Origin: Acidobacteriota bacterium
GTDB taxonomy: Bacteria > Acidobacteriota > Thermoanaerobaculia > Multivoradales > J023
Assembly: GCA_029263395.1 (NCBI GenBank)
Contig: JAJCXO010000276.1
Location: forward strand, 1-36,172
DNA length: 36,172 bases
Direction: 5' to 3'
Under the pieces are notes generated by a model, which was given only the letters and a program-made list of their open reading frames with translations, was not told where the DNA came from and made no database searches. The translations under genes were made by a program, and so were the position numbers. The stretch's first letter is position 1. Each line of letters opens with the position of its first letter. Below, piece after piece: positions 1,966 through 34,237 of the stretch.

Positions 1966-3035
1966 GACTCGCCTCGCCCACTCAGCGAGCCCGCCAAGCG
2001 GACCCCCTCGACATCACTTCGCAGGTGGATATCTTGCGGGAGATGCCTCCCCGACAACACCACGATCCGCTGGCGTGCGAGCTGTGCGCGCAAATCTCTG
2101 ACCGCCGCGGCGAGGGCCTCGCCGCCGTTCCAACCGAAGGACTTGGGCGGTAGCTCGATGGTGTAGCTCGGGTCCCACACCGCCCAATCCCGCGCCGGTC
2201 CGAAAGACAACAGAACACTCGGGACCTGAAGGTCCCGCAAGTACGCCCGAGCCTGACGTGCGGTGAAGAAGCTGTCGTCGACACTTTTGGCCGCCGCCAA
2301 CAAAAGTACCGCCCGGCGCTGGGCGCCGGCTTGGAGCTCCATCCCGGCGAGGGCCACCGCGTCTATGATCCGCGCAGTAGGCCCGTCGTCGTAACGGTCG
2401 ACGTGGGCCAGCAACCCGCGCTCCAACGGCAAACTCGGGGACGCTGAGAAAAAGTGACGCATGCCTCGAATCTTTGAAGGCGGTGCCGCGAGCGGCGACA
2501 GGAATCGGACTCGGGTATCGGCCTCGAATCGCAAGGCCCGCGTCGCCGGGTCGGCCTTTTGTCGATTGGCCAACAGCTCGAGATACACCTGGGTGGCGGG
2601 ATCGCGGACCACAACAAGTTCCGCCGGCCCTTTGTCGACCCTCAGAACCCGTAACGCTTGGCCGGCGGCATCGACGAACCAGTCTTGCATCTCGTCAACG
2701 GTGAGCGCTCGGTCGCGCACCGTCTCGATCGCGATCACCGTGCGATCCGTGGCACCCAGCTCTGTACCGTCCGAGGCATTGATCCATCGTCGCACCCGAC
2801 CGAGCTCACGCCCCGCGTCGTCGAACGCAATGGCCTCGAGCTCGTGCGCTCTCAGACCCTCGCCAAAGTCACCATCAAACCGCCAAGGCGGTCGGTCGAG
2901 TGTTGCCACAACGTCCTGATCGAGCCGAACCTCGACCACTGCAACCTCCGGAGCCACCTCCAACTCGACGGTCTGCACACCGCTGACCAGGCCCCAAAAC
3001 GCCGTCAGAACACGGATCGCCTCAAATCTCCCCAC
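1962..3035 (-). CDS. VWFA-like exported protein, paralogue A
   Basis: 357 aa, reading from a GTG at 3035 preceded by GAGGAG about 7-8 nt upstream. It has a short hydrophobic N-terminus, then an Ig-like module ending 'LGRVRRWINASDG', then a region patterned like a VWFA domain ('AELVVVRDPATQ', 'RRAVLLLAAAKS', 'LQVPSVLLSFG'). The MIDAS DxSxS signature is absent, so metal-dependent ligand binding is doubtful. The C-terminus 'GRHLPQDIHLRSDVEGVRLA' is shared with the next gene, showing a tandem duplication. It lacks the roughly 90-residue middle segment present in paralogue B. It is first in a two-gene minus-strand operon. The precise start is uncertain because the leader repeats the SD-plus-GTG unit several times. 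Confidence 0.7.
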   Translation of the reverse strand: MGRFEAIRVLTAFWGLVSGVQTVELEVAPEVAVVEVRLDQDVVATLDRPPWRFDGDFGEGLRAHELEAIAFDDAGRELGRVRRWINASDGTELGATDRTVIAIETVRDRALTVDEMQDWFVDAAGQALRVLRVDKGPAELVVVRDPATQVYLELLANRQKADPATRALRFEADTRVRFLSPLAAPPSKIRGMRHFFSASPSLPLERGLLAHVDRYDDGPTARIIDAVALAGMELQAGAQRRAVLLLAAAKSVDDSFFTARQARAYLRDLQVPSVLLSFGPARDWAVWDPSYTIELPPKSFGWNGGEALAAAVRDLRAQLARQRIVVLSGRHLPQDIHLRSDVEGVRLAGSLSGRGES

Positions 3036-21988: not shown

Positions 21989-22463
21989 CACGCACCACCG
22001 CTGAAAAGGGCCCGTAAGAACGCCGCTACCACCTCAACCTCGGGTTATCAGCGCGTACTCTAGAGAGTTCCCAACCCCTCGTGATCCCAAGACCGAAATC
22101 CTCCAACGCTCGCTGCAGGCCTCTATTTACGGGAGCAGGATCATCTCTTCTGTTACGACCTCCGAGCACCGACAGCGGCGACTCACTAGATTGCATCCAG
22201 CAGTAACGTCCGTTGGCGCTTCATCGCCAAGCAACAGAGTGCCACCTCCGCGCGGGACTGAAGTCCCGCGGCCAGTGATAAGGTACCTCCGGCTGCGCCT
22301 CCGCCTGACGGGACGAAGACAAAAAGAGGTCGGTAGCAATCTTGTTCCTTGTTGGACGAGATCTCACTAGGATCCAGGAATACCTGCCGATTCAGTGACG
22401 TTGTCATGATCGCTGGCTGCTGGACGGCCGGTGATCACGACCACTCGATCCGAGGAGATCTCC
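21989..22463. other. Intergenic region with REP-like hairpins
   Basis: No gene is supported. The region carries two hairpins: TTGGCG/CGCCAA (22213-22230) and the 'GGGACTGAAGTCCC' palindrome (22251-22270), the core of which recurs at 35127-35142. The right end holds GAGGAG (22452-22457), the ribosome-binding site of msrA. No convincing promoter was identified. Confidence 0.55.
22251..22270. repeat. REP-like palindrome, copy 1
   Basis: CGCGGGACT, GA, AGTCCCGCG: 9 bp of perfect inverted repeat. The core GGGACTGAAGTCCC is identical to that of the palindrome at 35120-35149, although the outer bases differ in a compensatory way. This is the hallmark of a dispersed palindromic element conserved for structure. 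Confidence 0.65.
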
Positions 22464-23168
22464 ATGGGCTTCGCCTTACGACGGCCGACCTCGCCAAACC
22501 AGGTCCCCAACAAGCTTCCGGCAATCGACCTCAAAGCACCCAGCAAGGTCCAAACTGCAACTTTCGCCCTTGGGTGATTCTGGGGTCCTGACTCCCAGTT
22601 TGGGAGTTTGCCAGGCGTCGTACGCACCCGCGTCGGTTACGCCGGCGGCACCACGTTGGATCCGACCTACCACGAGATCGGCGATCACGCCGAAACGTTG
22701 GAGATCCAGTTTGATCCAACCCTGACGTCGTATGACGAGCTGCTGGAAATCTTCTGGCGCAGCCATAGCCCAACACGCCAACCTTGGAAGCGACAGTACA
22801 TGTCGGCAATTTTTACTCACGGCGACGACCAACACGATAGAGCGCTAGCAACTCGCGATGCAGCCGCCGTTAAACTGGGTGAGATTCACACCGAAATCGA
22901 ACCGGCAGGGCCGTTCTATTTGGCCGAGGATTACCACCAGAAGTATCGATTGAGCCGCACCGGCAACCTCCTCATCGAATTGCAGGCAATGTACCCGCGG
23001 ATCGAAGACCTGGTGAGGTCTACGGCCGCGGCACGCATGAACGGCTTTGTCGCTGGTCACGGTCAACTCGAGGCTCTGCGCGCCGAGATCGACGACTACG
23101 GCCTGTCTCCGGATGCCAGACGTGTGCTGCTGAGGACCGCAGAACACAACCAGCGGCATCGCAGTTGA
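22464..23168 (+). CDS. msrA: Selenocysteine-containing methionine sulfoxide reductase A
   Basis: 234 codons from ATG 22464, with GAGGAG 6 nt upstream, read through an in-frame TGA at codon 38 (22575-22577). MsrA reduces methionine-S-sulfoxide in proteins using a catalytic Cys in the motif GCFWG. Here the frame reads 'TFALG-TGA-FWGPDSQFG', so TGA occupies exactly the catalytic position and is predicted to encode selenocysteine (GUFWG). The remainder is a well-kept MsrA: 'VVRTRVGYAGGTT', 'YHEIGDHAETLEIQFDP', 'WRSHSPTRQPWKRQYMSAIF', 'YLAEDYHQKY'. The reading frame is uninterrupted on both sides. There is no other Cys in the whole protein, so there is no resolving cysteine and reduction must rely on an outside thiol. 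A SECIS-like hairpin lies at 22587-22615. Standard calling would start at a TTG at 22608 and lose the active site. The alternative, an inactivating TGC-to-TGA mutation or base error, is less likely given the hairpin. Sec machinery (selA/selB/selC) is not in the window. Confidence 0.88.
22587..22615 (+). promoter_or_regulatory. Bacterial SECIS-like hairpin of msrA
   Basis: Upper stem ACTCCCA (22591-22597) pairs perfectly with TGGGAGT (22601-22607) around loop GTT. A lower stem, CCTG (22587-22590) with CAGG (22612-22615), continues after a 4-nt bulge on the 3' side. The stem starts 9 nt after the TGA and the loop 20 nt after it. As I recall the bacterial SECIS rules, the apical loop should lie roughly 16-37 nt downstream and carry a G in its first two positions; this one does. 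Confidence 0.75.
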
Positions 23169-23183
23169 TACCGCGTCGCCAGA

Positions 23184-24308
23184 TCAGCCCGCCAAGGCCT
23201 GCTCGAGATCCGCGATCAGATCGTCCACATGCTCCAGTCCAACCGACACCCGCAGCAGGTTCTGCGGAGTGGTCGACGTTGGGCCCTCGCTTGATGCGCG
23301 ATGTTCGATCAGGCTCTCGACGCCGCCGAGGCTAGTTGCATTGGTGAAGATCCGCACCCGCGAGGCAACCGCAACCGCCTGCTCCCTACCACCGCGGACC
23401 GACAGCGACAACATGCCGCCGAAGGCACGCATTTGTCGACGCGCGATGGTATGGCCGGGATGCTCCGGTAACCCCGGATAATGCACCGTCTCCAACTTGG
23501 GGTGGCCGGTCAGTGCCTCTGCAACAGCCAGGGCATTGGCGGCATGGCGCTCCACCCGGCAAGCCATGGATCGCAGGCCACGCAGCACCAACCAGGCATT
23601 AAACGGCGAACCCGCCGCCCCAAGTACCGAACGGATATGGAGCAACGCGTCATAGGTTGATCCGCGCTCCTTCAACACCAACGCTCCCCCCAGCACATCG
23701 CTGTGCCCGCCCATGTATTTAGTCGCCGAGTGCAGCACGATATCGGCGCCGAGCTCCAACGGTCGCTGCAAAATCGGGGTCGCAAAGGTGTTGTCCACCA
23801 CCAACATTGCACCGTGGCCATGGGCGATCTCGGCCAACGCTGTTAGATCGAGAACTTCGAGCAGTGGATTCGACGGCGTCTCCGCCCAAATCAGCCGCGT
23901 CTCCGGTGTCAACGCGGCTCGCACCGCGGCGAGATCTCCCATCTCCACCGTTGCCACCGAGCCGCCCCAACGCGGCACAAAATCGCGCCCGATTTCGCGC
24001 ACACCATGGTAGACATCGTTGGGCAGCAAGACATGGGAACCGGCCGGCAACGATTGCAGCACCGCCGCGCTCGCCCCCAAACCGGAGGCAAAAAACAGGG
24101 CCGTCTCACCACCCTCGGACGCCGCCAGCGCAGCTTCCAACCGAGTCTGCGTAGGATTGGACTCACGGATGTAAATGTGATCGTGTAGCGGCTCACGGTT
24201 GTCCGGAGCGTGTTCGAAGGTGGTCGATAGATGGATGGGTGGCGCTACCGCGCCGGTAGCAGAGTCGACTTCGGCACCGGCGTGGATCAGAAGAGTCTCG
24301 AGCTTCAA
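23184..24308 (-). CDS. Cystathionine gamma-synthase/lyase-family PLP enzyme
   Basis: 374 aa from a TTG at 24308, chosen because GGAGGA lies 6 nt upstream and the protein then starts MKLETLLIHAG, the usual start of the family. An ATG at 24338 has no ribosome-binding site. Trans-sulfuration enzyme hallmarks are present: 'PPIHLSTTF', 'YIRESNPTQTRLEAALAALE'-like region (actual: RLEAALAASEGG), 'FASGLGASAAVLQSL', 'WAETPSNPLLEVLDL', 'VVDNTFATP', PLP-binding Lys197 in 'HSATKYMGGHSD', and C-terminal 'SLGGVESLIEHRAS'. It acts in the cytosol on O-acyl-homoserine, cystathionine or homocysteine-type substrates. The exact reaction (synthase, gamma-lyase or beta-lyase) cannot be settled from motifs. It converges with the Sec-MsrA gene (15-bp gap), so both touch methionine metabolism, but they are not one operon. 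Confidence 0.9.
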   Translation of the reverse strand: MKLETLLIHAGAEVDSATGAVAPPIHLSTTFEHAPDNREPLHDHIYIRESNPTQTRLEAALAASEGGETALFFASGLGASAAVLQSLPAGSHVLLPNDVYHGVREIGRDFVPRWGGSVATVEMGDLAAVRAALTPETRLIWAETPSNPLLEVLDLTALAEIAHGHGAMLVVDNTFATPILQRPLELGADIVLHSATKYMGGHSDVLGGALVLKERGSTYDALLHIRSVLGAAGSPFNAWLVLRGLRSMACRVERHAANALAVAEALTGHPKLETVHYPGLPEHPGHTIARRQMRAFGGMLSLSVRGGREQAVAVASRVRIFTNATSLGGVESLIEHRASSEGPTSTTPQNLLRVSVGLEHVDDLIADLEQALAG

Positions 24309-24474
24309 GGCGTGTCCTCCGTGGGTTCGCTTTGCCATCAAGTATAGGGGGGGGCGGCTGGAGCACGGCACTCTCGTTTGCCGTCATCCAACGGATCTTG
24401 GAACACTACGGGCGGCAACCATAGGCGAAGGTGTTGGTGCCCGGTTACAATGCGGCCACCGAAAGGAGATTTCA

Positions 24475-26561: not shown

Positions 26562-26888
26562 AGCTAGGCTTTTTGACAGATGTCGACACAAGGAGTCGAC
26601 CTGACCGGCCTACAACCCTCACTCTGCTGTCCATCGCTGTTACCCCATCGCGGTTGACCCATCGTATGTAAGCCCTATCTTACACATACCAGAGAGTGCG
26701 GCGACGATGACGGGGTGTTCGCACCAAATCCGTTATATAGAACAATTCGAACAACGGGTCAGGTCGACTCTAGGCCCAATGCAAGCGGCTTGCCCACCCA
26801 ATCGGATATAGCTTATTATCTATATACCGAGTCTCTTCATCGAGTTGGCCACTTCACCACGATCATGCCTCCCAGCTGCGAGGAGCTT
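26562..26888. other. Divergent intergenic region
   Basis: It separates the GGDEF-EAL gene (-) from the large di-heme gene (+). It contains two promoter-like pairs on the plus strand and the inverted repeat TGTAAG/CTTACA, listed separately. The long frame of the plus gene stays open back to 26715 but without a start signal. Confidence 0.5.
26654..26684 (+). promoter_or_regulatory. Possible promoter with overlapping inverted repeat
   Basis: TTGACC (26654-26659), 16 bp, TATCTT (26676-26681). The inverted repeat TGTAAG (26667-26672) and CTTACA (26679-26684), separated by 6 bp, overlaps the -10 element, so a repressor could bind there. A second possible pair is TTGCCC (26790-26795), 18 bp, TATTAT (26814-26819). 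No experimental support. Confidence 0.4.
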
Positions 26889-29800
26889 ATGAAACAAGTC
26901 TCTGGAATTGCTGCCGCTGCTTGCCTCACCTTGACTGGAATCGCCACCGCCCAGGGATTCCCCAACGTCGCGCAAACTCCCGGCGCTATTTTGAGCGGCC
27001 TCAACGCGCCCCAGCAGGGCCGCTTGGCGATCATCGCCTACCACAACGGCCTTCTCTTTACGATCCCCGAACAACCGTCGAGCCAGCCTGGCTCCGACTT
27101 TCAGGTCCGGACGTGGGACATCTCCGACCCCGCCAATCCTGCCATTCTCGACAGCCTGGGCATCACCCCGCAGCCGGTCAACGCCCACGGCTACTTCAAG
27201 AGTGGCGACTACCTGGTGATCGGCCCCAACTGGCCGCCGGAAGCTCCTTGGTCGTTCCGCGCCAACGGACCAGGAACGGTTGAGCGGACCGAGTTTCCCG
27301 GTCTGATGGGCCCCGGGGTACGCGGCCAGCTGTTTCAACCGTGGTATGTCGGCGACACTTATTGGAGTTATAACGCGGTGTCCGGCAACGCCTTCATCGA
27401 ATTCGAGGGCACTCGGCTGGCGGAATGGGATCATCTCGGTCTGACCGGCGTCATCGGGCACCCCTTTTTGCTTGGCGACCTGCTGATCTTCGCCTCGGAT
27501 CAAAGCCGCACCGGTGTCGCCACCTACAACGTCAGCGATCCGACCAACCCGGTTTTGCTCGACGTGCTGACCACTGGCGGCCCGGGTGGCTACTGGCCCG
27601 AGCTGTGGGGCGGTGACGGCAAGCTCTACATCGTTTTCCCCTATCGCACCGGCGGTAACGGTTTCCGCATCGTCGACGCCACCGACCCGACGGATCTGCT
27701 GTTTGTCACCGACCGTGCGCTGCCCGGCGAAGAGTCGATGTACATCCAATTCCAGGACGAATTTGCCTTCATGGGCGATCACAAGGTCGATATGCGGACC
27801 TTCGAGTCGGTGCTGCATCTGGACGGCGCCAACGTGGTCCGTCCCAACGACGGCGGCACCGGCGTCAGCACCAGCCAATTCGCCTTGCCGCTCGGCAACC
27901 TGCTGGTGACCGGCGGTATCGGCCCCAATCAAGGCATGGCGATCTGGGCCCATCAAGCGACACCGGACACCCGCGGCCCGTCGGTCGGCTACCACATCCC
28001 GCGGGCTGGACGCTCCAACTACCCGCTCGGCGCTCCGATCAGCGTGCTGATCCACGAGACCCTCGACACCACGACCCTCGTCAACGGCACCACGTTCATC
28101 GTGCGACCCCTCGGCGGTGCGTCGATCCCCGGCCGCCTGATCTACGCGTTCGACGACATCCTGACCTTCACTCCCGACGCCCCGTTACAAGCCGACACCA
28201 CCTATGAGGTTGTACTGCCCGCGGGCGGTATCCAAGACGCTGTCGGCAACGGCATGGAAGCGTATTCCTTCACCTTCTCGACCGGCTCGAGCGTCGGCGG
28301 TAATGCCCCACCCACCGTCCAGACCTTTACCGCGTCGAGTTATCCGGTACCGCCGGGCCAGACCGTCACTTTGGCGGCAACTGCCACCGACCCCGAAACT
28401 GATCCGGTGGAGTATCGCTTCGACTTCGGCGACGGCTCACCGAGTACAGTTTGGTCTAGTGCCGCTTCGGCGCCACACATCTATGCCGACCCAGGTCACT
28501 ACCAGGCCACCGTCCAGGCTCGCGACGACTCCGGCGCGCTCGCTACCGACACCCTGACTGTCACCGTGCTGACACCGCCAGCTGGCCCACTCCCCACCCA
28601 CAGCGCAGAGCTGACTTGCGACGCCACGGGACGACGCCTTTGGACCGTCAACCCCGACAACAACTCGGTGACCGCAATCGATGTCGACAGCCTCGCCAAC
28701 GAACTTGAGGTGGCGGTGTGCGGCGATCCTCGCAGTGTGGCGCAGTCCGCTGCTGGCGAACTCTGGATCACCTGCCATGACGACGACCGCGTCCGTGTGC
28801 TCGATGCCAGCGGCGGCTTTGTCACCGATCTGCTCACCGGTTACGGTAGCGCGCCGATCGGCCTGGCTGTCTCCCCCGACGGCAACACCGTTTACGTCAG
28901 CCTGCAAGGCAGCGGCGAACTGCAGCGATTCAACGCCGCCACCCGCCAACCCACGGGTACACTCACCCTGGGGCCAACGCCGCGCGCGATTGCAGTCAGC
29001 GGCGACGGCACGCGAGTGCTGGTGACCCGTTTCCTGTCGCCCCAACATCACGCCGAGGTTTACGACGTGGATGCCGGCAGCTTCACCCTCACCCGCACCT
29101 TGCGGCTCAATAAGTTCGGCGGCGAAGACAATCGTGACAGTACCGCCTCAGGCCGAGGCGTCGCAAACTACCTGGTCGGCATCACCCTCTCACCCGACGG
29201 CGAGAACGCCTGGGTTGCGTCCAACAAACCCAATGCCGAGCGTGGCCTGTTTTTTGCCGATGATCTCGATCAGGACAACACCGTACGCAACGTGTTGTCC
29301 CAGATCGATCTCACTACCAACACATTGACCGGCGCCATCGACCTCGACAACAGTGATTCCGCCGCCGCCGCCGGTTTCTCACCCCTCGGTGACTATCTTT
29401 TTGTCGCCCTCCAAGGGAATGACGAAATCGTGGTGTTCGACGCGCTGGCTACCGACCCGGCAAATGGCTTCGTCAGCCTCGTCACTCGCCTCGGCGGCGG
29501 TGCGGCCCCCCGGGGCATCTGCGCCGATCCTGTGACCAACCGGGTCTTCGTGAAGAACTTCATGAGCCGTGACGTCACCGCCTTCGAGACCGACGACCTG
29601 TTTCGTTTTGGCGACAAGACCGTCGCCGCCACCGACCTCGCAACGGTCACTACCGAAAACCTTTCCCCCACCGTGCTCAACGGCAAACGTATTTTCTACA
29701 ACGCCAGCGACCCGCGAATGAGCGCCGAGGGTTACATCAGCTGCGCCACTTGCCATCTCGACGGTGGCCACGATGGCCGGGTATGGGACTTCAATGGCCG

Positions 29801-30944
29801 GGGTGAAGGTTTCCGCAATACCACCACCTTGCGAGGACGCAGCGGCATCGCCCATGGCAACGTCCACTGGACTGCCAACTTCGACGAAATCCAGGACTTC
29901 GAAAACGATATCCGTGGTCCCTTCGGTGGTGCAGGCTTCATGGACGATGCCGACTTCGACGCCACCAGCGCCACCCTCGGGCCGCCCAAAACCGGTCTCA
30001 GTACCGACCTCGATGCCCTCGCCGCGTACGTCACGTCGCTGGCCAACGAATCCCTGCCGCGCAGCCCATTTCGCAGTGCCGATGGCATCTTGACTGCCGA
30101 AGCCATAGCCGGACGTTCCGTCTTCCAAAACTCTGGCTGCGCCACCTGCCATGCCGGAGCCAATCTCACCGACAGCACCCTGGGCAGCGCTACCCTGCAC
30201 GATGTCGGGACCTTGCGCACCACCTCGGGACAGCGGTTGGGCGGCCCACTGAACGGCATCGACACGCCTACGCTGCTCGGGGTCTGGAACACCGCACCGT
30301 ATTTCCACGACGGCTCGGCCCCAACCCTGGATGCCGTCTTTCGAGTGGCCGGTGGTGAGATTCTGCAAGCTGAAGACGGCACGGTCTCCGGCGGCGCCAC
30401 TATCACCACCGAATATGTCGACCTCAACAACGATGACACGGTCCACAATCGCGCTTACGTTGGACTCAACAACACCGGCGCACGGGTAACCTGGAGCAAC
30501 GTCGACGGCGGTGCCGGTGGCACCGGAGCGCTCGAGATCCGCTACAGCTCGTGGAACGGCCAGGACATTCAAGTCAGCGTCAACGGTGTGTCACGGACCA
30601 TGACGCTCACCGATCCGGGCAACGATCCCCGGTGGCGCCACACCAACTGGCTGCAGCTCCGAGTTGAAGACGTGACCTTCAACCCTGGTACAACCAACAC
30701 CGTGGCGGTTTTTACCAGCCACGAATTCCCCAACGTCAGCATCGATGACGTGGTGATCTCGACTCCAGACCTGTTGGCCACCGCCCAGCCCCACCGTACC
30801 GTGTTGGCGTTGTCGGCCACCGACCAGGCCAACCTGCTGGCCTATCTGCGTCAGCTCGACGGCCGCGCCGAGGACGGCGCCGAACCTTTGATCTTCGTCG
30901 ATGGCTTCGAGTCGGGAGACACCTCCGCCTGGTCAACTCCTTAG
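26889..30944 (+). CDS. Giant exported di-heme propeller protein
   Basis: 1351 aa from the ATG at 26889 (AGGAG 3 nt upstream), which yields a clean signal peptide 'MKQVSGIAAAACLTLTGIA' ending near TAQG. Order: an N-terminal LVIVD-like propeller region ('QVRTWDISDPANPAILDS'); an Ig-like Big_5 domain ('DTTTLVNGTTFIVRPLGG'); a PKD domain ('VEYRFDFGDGSPSTVW'); a YVTN-type propeller ('PIGLAVSPDGNTVYVSLQGS'); then a di-heme MauG/cytochrome c peroxidase-like region with CATCH at 952-956 and CATCH at 1084-1088, and 'PYFHDGSAPTLDAVF'. Between that motif and the closing helix 'LSATDQANLLAYLRQLDG' a carbohydrate-binding-like domain of about 130 residues is inserted ('GEILQAEDGTVSGGA'). The C-terminus 'FVDGFESGDTSAWS' is a lineage-typical end. 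It is likely periplasmic or extracellular and redox-active; the substrate is unknown. Confidence 0.85.
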   Translation: MKQVSGIAAAACLTLTGIATAQGFPNVAQTPGAILSGLNAPQQGRLAIIAYHNGLLFTIPEQPSSQPGSDFQVRTWDISDPANPAILDSLGITPQPVNAHGYFKSGDYLVIGPNWPPEAPWSFRANGPGTVERTEFPGLMGPGVRGQLFQPWYVGDTYWSYNAVSGNAFIEFEGTRLAEWDHLGLTGVIGHPFLLGDLLIFASDQSRTGVATYNVSDPTNPVLLDVLTTGGPGGYWPELWGGDGKLYIVFPYRTGGNGFRIVDATDPTDLLFVTDRALPGEESMYIQFQDEFAFMGDHKVDMRTFESVLHLDGANVVRPNDGGTGVSTSQFALPLGNLLVTGGIGPNQGMAIWAHQATPDTRGPSVGYHIPRAGRSNYPLGAPISVLIHETLDTTTLVNGTTFIVRPLGGASIPGRLIYAFDDILTFTPDAPLQADTTYEVVLPAGGIQDAVGNGMEAYSFTFSTGSSVGGNAPPTVQTFTASSYPVPPGQTVTLAATATDPETDPVEYRFDFGDGSPSTVWSSAASAPHIYADPGHYQATVQARDDSGALATDTLTVTVLTPPAGPLPTHSAELTCDATGRRLWTVNPDNNSVTAIDVDSLANELEVAVCGDPRSVAQSAAGELWITCHDDDRVRVLDASGGFVTDLLTGYGSAPIGLAVSPDGNTVYVSLQGSGELQRFNAATRQPTGTLTLGPTPRAIAVSGDGTRVLVTRFLSPQHHAEVYDVDAGSFTLTRTLRLNKFGGEDNRDSTASGRGVANYLVGITLSPDGENAWVASNKPNAERGLFFADDLDQDNTVRNVLSQIDLTTNTLTGAIDLDNSDSAAAAGFSPLGDYLFVALQGNDEIVVFDALATDPANGFVSLVTRLGGGAAPRGICADPVTNRVFVKNFMSRDVTAFETDDLFRFGDKTVAATDLATVTTENLSPTVLNGKRIFYNASDPRMSAEGYISCATCHLDGGHDGRVWDFNGRGEGFRNTTTLRGRSGIAHGNVHWTANFDEIQDFENDIRGPFGGAGFMDDADFDATSATLGPPKTGLSTDLDALAAYVTSLANESLPRSPFRSADGILTAEAIAGRSVFQNSGCATCHAGANLTDSTLGSATLHDVGTLRTTSGQRLGGPLNGIDTPTLLGVWNTAPYFHDGSAPTLDAVFRVAGGEILQAEDGTVSGGATITTEYVDLNNDDTVHNRAYVGLNNTGARVTWSNVDGGAGGTGALEIRYSSWNGQDIQVSVNGVSRTMTLTDPGNDPRWRHTNWLQLRVEDVTFNPGTTNTVAVFTSHEFPNVSIDDVVISTPDLLATAQPHRTVLALSATDQANLLAYLRQLDGRAEDGAEPLIFVDGFESGDTSAWSTP

Positions 30945-31765: not shown

Positions 31766-34237
31766 ATGGTGACGCTAGACATGGTGGGACTAAGTCCAGC
31801 GCTGCTGTTCGATGGATTGCTAGTGAGTTCGATCGGCGGGTCCATCCTTTTGCTAGGTGCGCGTCTTGTGATGCGCCATCTTCGCTCGCACCCCCACCCT
31901 GTCCTTTGCCAAGTTGCTCTCGGTGCCCTTCTGTGCTGCCTCGGAATCCTCTCCGTCGCTCTGACCGTCCAGCCAGAGCCGATCGGCTGCTTGACTACGG
32001 ATTGCCGCTCCGCCGCGAGTGAGGCCACGGGCCAAAGTCAGCGAGAGTTCACTTTCGCAGCCATGGGAAAATTTGCAGACGTTGCGGGCTCCGATCACAA
32101 AACGACCCTCGCTCCACCCGCGCCAATCTGGATTCGCGGTACCTTACTGATCTGGGGCCTGGGCTTGATCGTTCTGATAGCACGCATGATCGGTCGACGA
32201 ATCAAAACAGCACATTTGATAACCCAGGCCGTGCCCATCGAAGCGGGTCCTCTGGCCGAGGCCTTTCGCCGAGCGTGTAAAAAACATGGTGTCCGTTCAG
32301 TGCCACGGCTGCTGAGGCATGACGATATCGATGTACCCGTAGCAGGCGGTGTGTTGCGACCAGTGGTATTTCTACCAGCTGGTTTCGACAGCCAGTCTCC
32401 CGCCCGAGTCGAAATGATTCTTCTCCATGAGCTCGCTCATTTACTCCGCCGGGACCCACTTGCAACATTTGCCGCAGAGCTGACGACCGCCTGCTTTTGG
32501 TTCAACCCACTCGTTTGGAAAACGGCGAGCCGGATCCGCGAGCTGCAAGAGCTTGCCGCCGACAGCCTGGTGATCAACGTCGGCATCAAACCTTCACATT
32601 ACGCGCAGTGCCTGCTCAGAACCTTTCGAGAGTTCACTGGCTCACGACCGACGCTGCTGCCCACTGCCCACTCTATTTTAGGTAATTCTTTGCTCGAGAC
32701 ACGATTGCGCACAGTACTCGATTGCGCCCGACCGCACGGCGCACCAAGGCGATCTGTGACGTTCGGTATGGTCACACTATTCTGTATCTTGTCTGTTGCC
32801 ATGGCCATGGCGCCGCAGGCACTATCCACGGGGGCTCCTTCAGAGAGTACCGAGTCGTCAGAAATCGAACTCCAACAGTCGCTCCTGAATCGCACCGCCC
32901 TCGACGAGATACTCCGCCCCCTGTTCATCGACACGATGACTGAACATCACATTGCAGGGGCTGCGATTGCAATCGTCCACAAAGATAAGCTGGTGTATGA
33001 CCAGGGGTTTGGTAACCTGGAGGTTTACCAAGAAAAGCCTGTCGATTCTCGCAGCACCATTTTTAGAATCGGCTCGATTTCCAAAGTTGTCACCGGCGTC
33101 GCCGTGATGCAGCTTGTCGATCAAGGTTTGTTGGACCTGGACGCTGACGTCAACGACTACCTGACCAAATTCAAGGTTCCAGAAACCTTTGATGAACCCG
33201 TACGGGTGCGACATTTACTGACCCATACCGCAGGTTTTGACCAGATAGGCCTCGGCCGCCATGTGATGAAACTCGAAGAAGTGCTGCCTCTCGGCGAGTT
33301 CCTCGATGGCAACTTGATCAGAGTCCGGCCGCCGGGTGAGGTCAGCTGTTACGACACCTATGCGATTACCCTAGCGGGCTATTTGGTAGAGCAGTTATCT
33401 GGACAGTCGTTCGAGCAATACTTACAAGAACACCTATTCAAACCGCTAGAAATGATTCGAAGCGGTATCGCAGTACCTCCAGCCTTGGCAGCAGACACTG
33501 CGGTGGGATACGACTTCCGGGATCAGTGGCTGCCCATGCGATGGGAGTTCATGAACACGGCGCCAGCCTCTACAGTTAATGCCACAGTTACGGACATGGC
33601 CAACTTCGCCATCATGATGTTGCAAGATGGCCAGTTCAAAGGCCGGCAGATCCTGACGCCCGAGTCGGCACAGGCCATGCTGACGCAGCAGCACACCAAC
33701 CACCCTGATCATCCCGGTTACGGACTCACGTTCATCGAAGACCCCAGCCACGGCGTGCCGGCCTTCGGTCACGGTGGATCGATGACTGGATTCGGCGCCT
33801 ACTTGTATCTGGTGCCGGAACTCGAGCTCGGTATTTATCTATCTTACAACCAGGAATCGGGAGTACTTCCGGAAGCGGCCATCTCTCGTTTGATAGCCGT
33901 CTTGGCTCCGGGTCGATCCTCGACCCCAGAGCTGAGGCCTCGTTACGAACAGGCTGTCGACCTATCCCGATTTGCTGGCACCTACGCCAACAACATGCAT
34001 CACCACACCGATCCCTCAACCGGTTGGAGGCGCCGGCCGCTGATGGTTGAGACCAACGATCTCGGGGTTGTGTTCAAAGGCAAACAAGCCTACCCGGTAG
34101 GCCCTTTGGACTTTCAGCGTGACGACGGAGTCCTGTTGTCGTTCCGAGAAAACTCGCGAGGCGAGATCACCTACCTTTTGATCAACCAGACAGCGTACGA
34201 GCGAATCCGCGCTCCTACGCGGCTTGCTGGCGAGTGA
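31766..34237 (+). CDS. BlaR1-like M56 peptidase fused to class C beta-lactamase-like domain
   Basis: 823 aa, ATG with GGAAGGA 9 nt upstream. The N-terminal half is a multi-pass M56 metallopeptidase: hydrophobic segments at about 14-34, 46-66, 125-143 and 331-351, and zinc motif HELAH (His221, Glu222, His225) with 'ELAADSLV' (Glu262). The C-terminal half is a serine beta-lactamase/DD-peptidase of the class C/esterase type: nucleophile motif SISK (Ser437, Lys440) and 'HLLTHTAGF'. The second motif reads Tyr529-Asp-Thr where Y-x-N is usual. The third is His669-Gly-Gly in 'FGHGGSMTGF'. Classical BlaR1 carries a class D-like sensor, so this fusion uses a different penicillin-binding fold. It probably senses beta-lactams or peptidoglycan fragments and triggers BlaI cleavage; hydrolysis by the domain is also possible. 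The 3' end overlaps yaaA by 23 bp, convergent. Confidence 0.88.
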   Translation: MVTLDMVGLSPALLFDGLLVSSIGGSILLLGARLVMRHLRSHPHPVLCQVALGALLCCLGILSVALTVQPEPIGCLTTDCRSAASEATGQSQREFTFAAMGKFADVAGSDHKTTLAPPAPIWIRGTLLIWGLGLIVLIARMIGRRIKTAHLITQAVPIEAGPLAEAFRRACKKHGVRSVPRLLRHDDIDVPVAGGVLRPVVFLPAGFDSQSPARVEMILLHELAHLLRRDPLATFAAELTTACFWFNPLVWKTASRIRELQELAADSLVINVGIKPSHYAQCLLRTFREFTGSRPTLLPTAHSILGNSLLETRLRTVLDCARPHGAPRRSVTFGMVTLFCILSVAMAMAPQALSTGAPSESTESSEIELQQSLLNRTALDEILRPLFIDTMTEHHIAGAAIAIVHKDKLVYDQGFGNLEVYQEKPVDSRSTIFRIGSISKVVTGVAVMQLVDQGLLDLDADVNDYLTKFKVPETFDEPVRVRHLLTHTAGFDQIGLGRHVMKLEEVLPLGEFLDGNLIRVRPPGEVSCYDTYAITLAGYLVEQLSGQSFEQYLQEHLFKPLEMIRSGIAVPPALAADTAVGYDFRDQWLPMRWEFMNTAPASTVNATVTDMANFAIMMLQDGQFKGRQILTPESAQAMLTQQHTNHPDHPGYGLTFIEDPSHGVPAFGHGGSMTGFGAYLYLVPELELGIYLSYNQESGVLPEAAISRLIAVLAPGRSSTPELRPRYEQAVDLSRFAGTYANNMHHHTDPSTGWRRRPLMVETNDLGVVFKGKQAYPVGPLDFQRDDGVLLSFRENSRGEITYLLINQTAYERIRAPTRLAGE

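Follow-up and report, generated by a model that had tools for sequence, protein, structure and literature searches.

The window analysed here, a stretch of 36,172 nt of DNA, almost certainly carries the gene of a methionine-S-sulfoxide reductase (MsrA) with a single selenocysteine (Sec), in which the UGA at 22575 would be read as Sec through SelB and a hairpin in the message. We infer the insertion of Sec, the activity and the reductant from the reading frame, the conserved TGA, the Sec machinery, the constraint on the hairpin, the homology and the active-site residues. By sequence, the gene is a new member of the already known 1-Sec MsrA family, resembling CoMsrA of Clostridium oremlandii. 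The features of the gene are listed below.

22452..22457, + strand: GAGGAG, a Shine-Dalgarno-like sequence ahead of ATG 22464 (read directly)
22464..23168, + strand: msrA(Sec) coding sequence, 234 residues and stop (frame, Pfam PMSR, dN/dS)
22554..22952, + strand: MsrA catalytic domain, Pfam PMSR, residues 31-163 (Pfam)
22575..22577, + strand: in-frame TGA, the predicted Sec, residue 38, at the catalytic position of G[C/U]FWG (translation, relatives, CoMsrA alignment)
22590..22608, + strand: SECIS-type hairpin GACUCCC-AGUUU-GGGAGUU (fold, relatives, synonymous recoding)
22608..23168, + strand: headless ORF under ordinary start and stop rules (mechanical ORF list)
23004..23108, + strand: C-terminal helical domain, Pfam MsrA_helical, residues 181-215 (Pfam, 4lwj match)

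Reading and translating the sequence confirmed what a preliminary description of this DNA had claimed, namely an MsrA frame at 22464-23168 which is interrupted by TGA 22575-22577 alone, and a GAGGAG placed 6 nt ahead of its ATG. The frame is single up to the TGA stop at 23166-23168, and its sole internal stop stands in the context FALG-U-FWGPDSQFG. This TGA was also said to occupy the catalytic Cys position of GCFWG, which holds, catalytic residue 16 of CoMsrA being its counterpart in the alignment. Compared with the gene of G001, a genome of the same genus, the 196 codons after the TGA gave dN 0.11 and dS 1.01. The 32 codons before the TGA give a weaker coding signal (dN 0.29 and dS 0.72, 19/32 residues identical).

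The mechanical ORF list does begin the gene at TTG 22608, as had been predicted for a plain gene call, and thereby reports 186 aa and loses 48 codons including the catalytic one. The gene is thus a clean example, from a little-studied lineage, of a predicted selenoprotein gene whose head ordinary gene calling would cut off, although the biology itself is already known. It is very improbable that the cell makes this headless ORF as its real product, with noncoding DNA ahead of it. The ORF is what ordinary rules produce, and GGGAG at 22602-22606 lies ahead of the TTG, but this GGGAG is an arm of the hairpin and only one base away from the TTG, closer than a ribosome site normally stands; the TTG start itself overlaps the final base of the hairpin. 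Such a product would have neither the catalytic residue nor the FW motif, while the upstream segment FALG-U-FWGPD is conserved in relatives and the GAGGAG lies 6 nt ahead of ATG 22464.

Further, the TGA was followed through related genomes. A search of 40 genomes, including the window's own (G000), covered the seven genomes of its family (G000-G006), and a Sec-MsrA gene with one TGA was found in six of them, belonging to four genera (G000, G001, G002, G004, G005 and G006). In all six the TGA is the codon directly before FW. The G001 protein is 80% identical to that of the window, and G002, G004, G005 and G006 are other species. Because the identical TGA occurs in these five further genomes, a chance stop or a sequencing error at 22575-22577 is very unlikely. 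The family genome search found no Sec-MsrA match in G003, though the Sec machinery is present there. Among the matches listed for 148 genomes of the class (down to about 121 bits), those bearing TGA came from the six family genomes and from G074, which belongs to another family of the same order. The G074 gene (L175) is a lone Sec-type MsrA frame with TGA; its C-terminal part is much diverged, and with an end branch of 4.21 its placement in the tree is unsure.

Named genomes were scanned with the part after the TGA as query, which gave at least 581 relatives, and the best 80 were kept. Among these the TGA is in register in 78, one (L094) has the TGA followed by a one-base frameshift, and one (L118) has TGT. 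It should be noted that the resulting 79 of 80 with TGA, L094 counted, is no estimate of the frequency of Sec in the wider family, as the best 80 are those nearest to the Sec-type query, and that one of them (L133) is G006 itself. By their record titles the 78 loci placed in the tree come from ten phyla, with 12 or so rows lacking a phylum. The preliminary description had Sec forms of MsrA in a few algae and bacteria; their existence is borne out, but their rarity was overstated, given ten phyla among the 80 best-matching loci. The tree has 98 rows and was made by a quick method, 46 of its 95 inner branches being weak. The window gene pairs with G001, G006 with G002 and G005 with G004 (starred pairs), and the 12 Cys rows, all from other genomes, stand apart. 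Thus, when the codon of relatives was checked as had been proposed, the TGA was found to be kept, and the Cys MsrAs compared sit on other branches.

A gene that is intact but for one premature stop also looks like a young pseudogene, here an ancestral Cys MsrA whose catalytic codon had mutated to TGA. We consider this extremely improbable, as the same TGA recurs over the four genera and in nearly all of the best named loci, dN/dS is about 0.11 after the TGA, and the hairpin is constrained, as described below.

A Sec codon requires its machinery, and the search for selA, selB, selD and a tRNA-Sec gene that had been suggested found all four in the same genome as the msrA gene. SelB, tRNA-Sec, SelA and SelD each scored over the family cut-off in 7/7 family genomes, and ARAGORN reported a tRNA-Sec(tca) in the window's own genome. 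In 14 control genomes the cut-off was passed by SelB in 2, tRNA-Sec in 5, SelA in 1 and SelD in 2. The tRNA-Sec model scores in all 14 controls, above or below the cut-off, and passes it at two places in some family genomes; hence only the top matches (67-74 bits) count.

An open frame cannot by itself separate Sec from another residue, and the TGA might in principle be read as some other amino acid, either Trp as in code 4 or through near-cognate misreading. This, too, seems extremely improbable: TGA also serves as the terminal stop of msrA, the internal TGA sits precisely at the catalytic position, the four components of Sec insertion are present, and the hairpin distinguishes genes with TGA (82/83) from those with Cys (4/43). 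The insertion of Sec at this codon, which the preliminary description had proposed, is accordingly well supported as a prediction by the conserved TGA, the machinery and the constrained hairpin.

The selD gene gives a second case. In 7/7 family genomes the top match (L147-L153) has one in-frame TGA in the context CGUAAK, and its hairpin, GAGCCC-GGUC-GGGCUC, has the same CCC-loop-GGG design as that of msrA. As selD also carries an internal TGA, the genome of the window probably encodes at least two selenoproteins, Sec-MsrA and SelD, the search having covered selD and glutaredoxin besides msrA.

The hairpin of msrA, which the preliminary description had not mentioned, starts 12 nt 3' of the TGA. 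The fold tool adds one apical pair to the version listed above, leaving a loop of 3 nt. We compared it in 83 TGA genes, made up of 78 named loci and five family genes, which are related and not independent samples; L094 (frameshift), L118 (TGT), L011 (same record as L133) and L175 were left out of the counts. The three pairs adjacent to the loop form in 82 of the 83, as against 4 of 43 Cys MsrA genes. The fourth pair forms in 67/83 (T-A in 47, G-C in 15) and the fifth in 69/83, while the two outermost pairs are weakly kept (33/83 and 35/83). The loop is [AG]GTT[CT] in 82 genes and GGTAC in one. The Gly codon within the hairpin is GGG in 82/83, whereas of the 1041 Gly codons in the rest of these genes 211 are GGG.

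The stability of the 24-nt hairpin segment was tested against 200 synonymous recodings per gene. The mean z was -2.67 for the 83 TGA genes, with 75 of them below -1.5, and -2.99 for the window gene, where 1 of 200 recodings was as stable. The 43 distinct Cys MsrA genes from the class had a mean of 0.16, none falling below -1.5; these genes were obtained from 47 loci by removal of three second copies and of L175, which has TGA. The Cys controls belong to other MsrA branches and have other residues at the hairpin site, so all that they establish is that MsrA genes in general do not carry the hairpin; it is the synonymous recoding that controls for the protein sequence. Synonymous sites within the hairpin are constrained. 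The signal emerges only from the comparison of the hairpin itself with synonymous recodings, as minimum-energy z scores of six 55-nt windows against dinucleotide shuffles were unremarkable (-1.3 to +0.5). An Rfam scan of 22300-23300 with E up to 5 matched no family. Lying directly 3' of the UGA, the hairpin appears SECIS-like in the sense used for bacterial selenoprotein genes.

The TGT locus L118 (Thermodesulfobacteriota bacterium DHS20C13, codon at 2998-3000) falls inside the Sec group with support 90 in the quick tree, and is the single Cys member found within that group. It keeps one of the three apical pairs and has lost two, which matches the prediction of a Sec-to-Cys change, and such a change is likely.

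When the TGA is translated as a residue, the protein matches Pfam PMSR with E 1.9e-38, and MsrA_helical (PF20939), which Pfam describes as a domain of selenoprotein MsrA, with E 9e-6 (25.8 bits, cut-off 23.7). NCBIfam TIGR00401 scores 117.6 bits against a cut-off of 108.1. The 234 residues contain no Cys, and there is thus no resolving Cys. Like the hairpin, the lack of Cys and the helical domain add to what the preliminary description contained. The nearest solved structure is 4lwj (E 3.2e-60, residues 27-227, 102/201 residues identical). This entry, along with 4u66 and 7c13, we take to be CoMsrA of Clostridium (Alkaliphilus) oremlandii, the structure table saying only MsrA.

Nine of ten mapped active-site positions agree with CoMsrA when Sec is counted for Cys. 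Tyr47, Glu55, Gln89, Tyr90, His137 and Tyr140 of CoMsrA are kept in the window protein, and the exception is Tyr48, which is replaced by His70. The window protein also resembles CoMsrA in the position of its catalytic residue within G[C/U]FWG, in having no further Cys and in its C-terminal helical domain. It differs in having 37 residues before Sec where CoMsrA has 15, and in its host, which is probably one of the Acidobacteriota, from the class Thermoanaerobaculia. In two papers, CoMsrA is described as a native Sec enzyme without Cys whose helical domain is required, as about 20 times more active in its Sec form than in its Cys form, and as reduced by glutaredoxin and not by thioredoxin (PMC4479559, PMC4333827).

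We propose that SelB with Sec-tRNA-Sec would bind the hairpin just 3' of UGA 22575 and bring in selenocysteine, whereas at the terminal UGA 23166, which lacks such a hairpin (fold energy -3.7 as against -10.8 kcal/mol at the internal TGA), translation would end. The selenol of Sec38 would attack methionine-S-sulfoxide, held and protonated by Tyr69, Glu77 and Tyr112. Glutaredoxin or a small thiol, acting from outside the protein, would then reduce the oxidised Sec, as has been reported of the C. oremlandii enzyme. Because the protein has no resolving cysteine, this external reduction of Sec38 is the most likely route. Three glutaredoxin-domain matches in the window's genome have no internal stop. 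The same genome holds two Cys MsrA paralogues (G000:C169 and G000:C18), with catalytic codons TGT and TGC, neither of which forms the three apical hairpin pairs. With these two paralogues in the genome, the retention of Sec can be studied within one organism.

Across the six proteins of the family, Tyr69, Glu77 and His158 do not vary. Four of the six also retain Gln111, Tyr112 and Tyr161; those of G005 (L013) and G004 (L014), which pair with each other in the tree (starred), carry Arg-Val instead of Gln111-Tyr112, and Phe instead of Tyr161. By eye, L013 and L014 also have a hydrophobic N-terminus resembling a signal peptide or anchor. Tentatively, the family may have two forms of Sec-MsrA, one with no apparent export signal (window, G001, G002 and G006) and one diverged and perhaps exported (G004 and G005), though we hold this division to be somewhat doubtful. 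If it is true, G004 and G005 would have a Sec-MsrA that is periplasmic or secreted and whose active site is altered, and we know of no report of such an enzyme.

The ordinary Cys MsrA (TIGR00401) shares the catalytic domain and has Cys where the window protein has Sec. In the algal (Chlamydomonas) Sec-MsrA, likened here by general description only, Sec is at the catalytic position as in the window protein; the SECIS there lies in the 3' UTR, where eukaryotic SECIS elements are located. The literature names Sec-MsrA for Syntrophobacter fumaroxidans in 2006 (PMC1794560) and in marine metagenomes (PMC2398784), likewise bacterial selenoprotein MsrAs, to which the window protein can be likened by these descriptions alone. 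Selenoprotein MsrA is mentioned there for both prokaryotes and eukaryotes (PMC2398784), and also appears in two reviews (PMC9312934, PMC13188914), the latter of which (2026) lists it as a selenoprotein family. For Acidobacteria, a passage of PMC1794560 counts three selenoprotein families with four proteins and does not give their names. A literature search for Thermoanaerobaculia and selenoprotein found no paper, which is not proof of absence.

Adjoining the Sec-MsrA gene, and convergent with it, is a gene for a PLP-dependent enzyme of Cys/Met metabolism (23184-24371, - strand). The enzyme is also next to Sec-MsrA in G001 (84% identical), and was not found beside it in the stretches of G002, G004, G005 and G006 examined. 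Elsewhere in the window, one frame at 31766-34237 (+ strand) combines a BlaR1-type M56 peptidase domain and a beta-lactamase-family domain (Pfam). A large protein at 26715-30944 (+ strand) contains PKD and Ig-like domains, a lactonase-type propeller and RoxA/MauG-like cytochrome segments.
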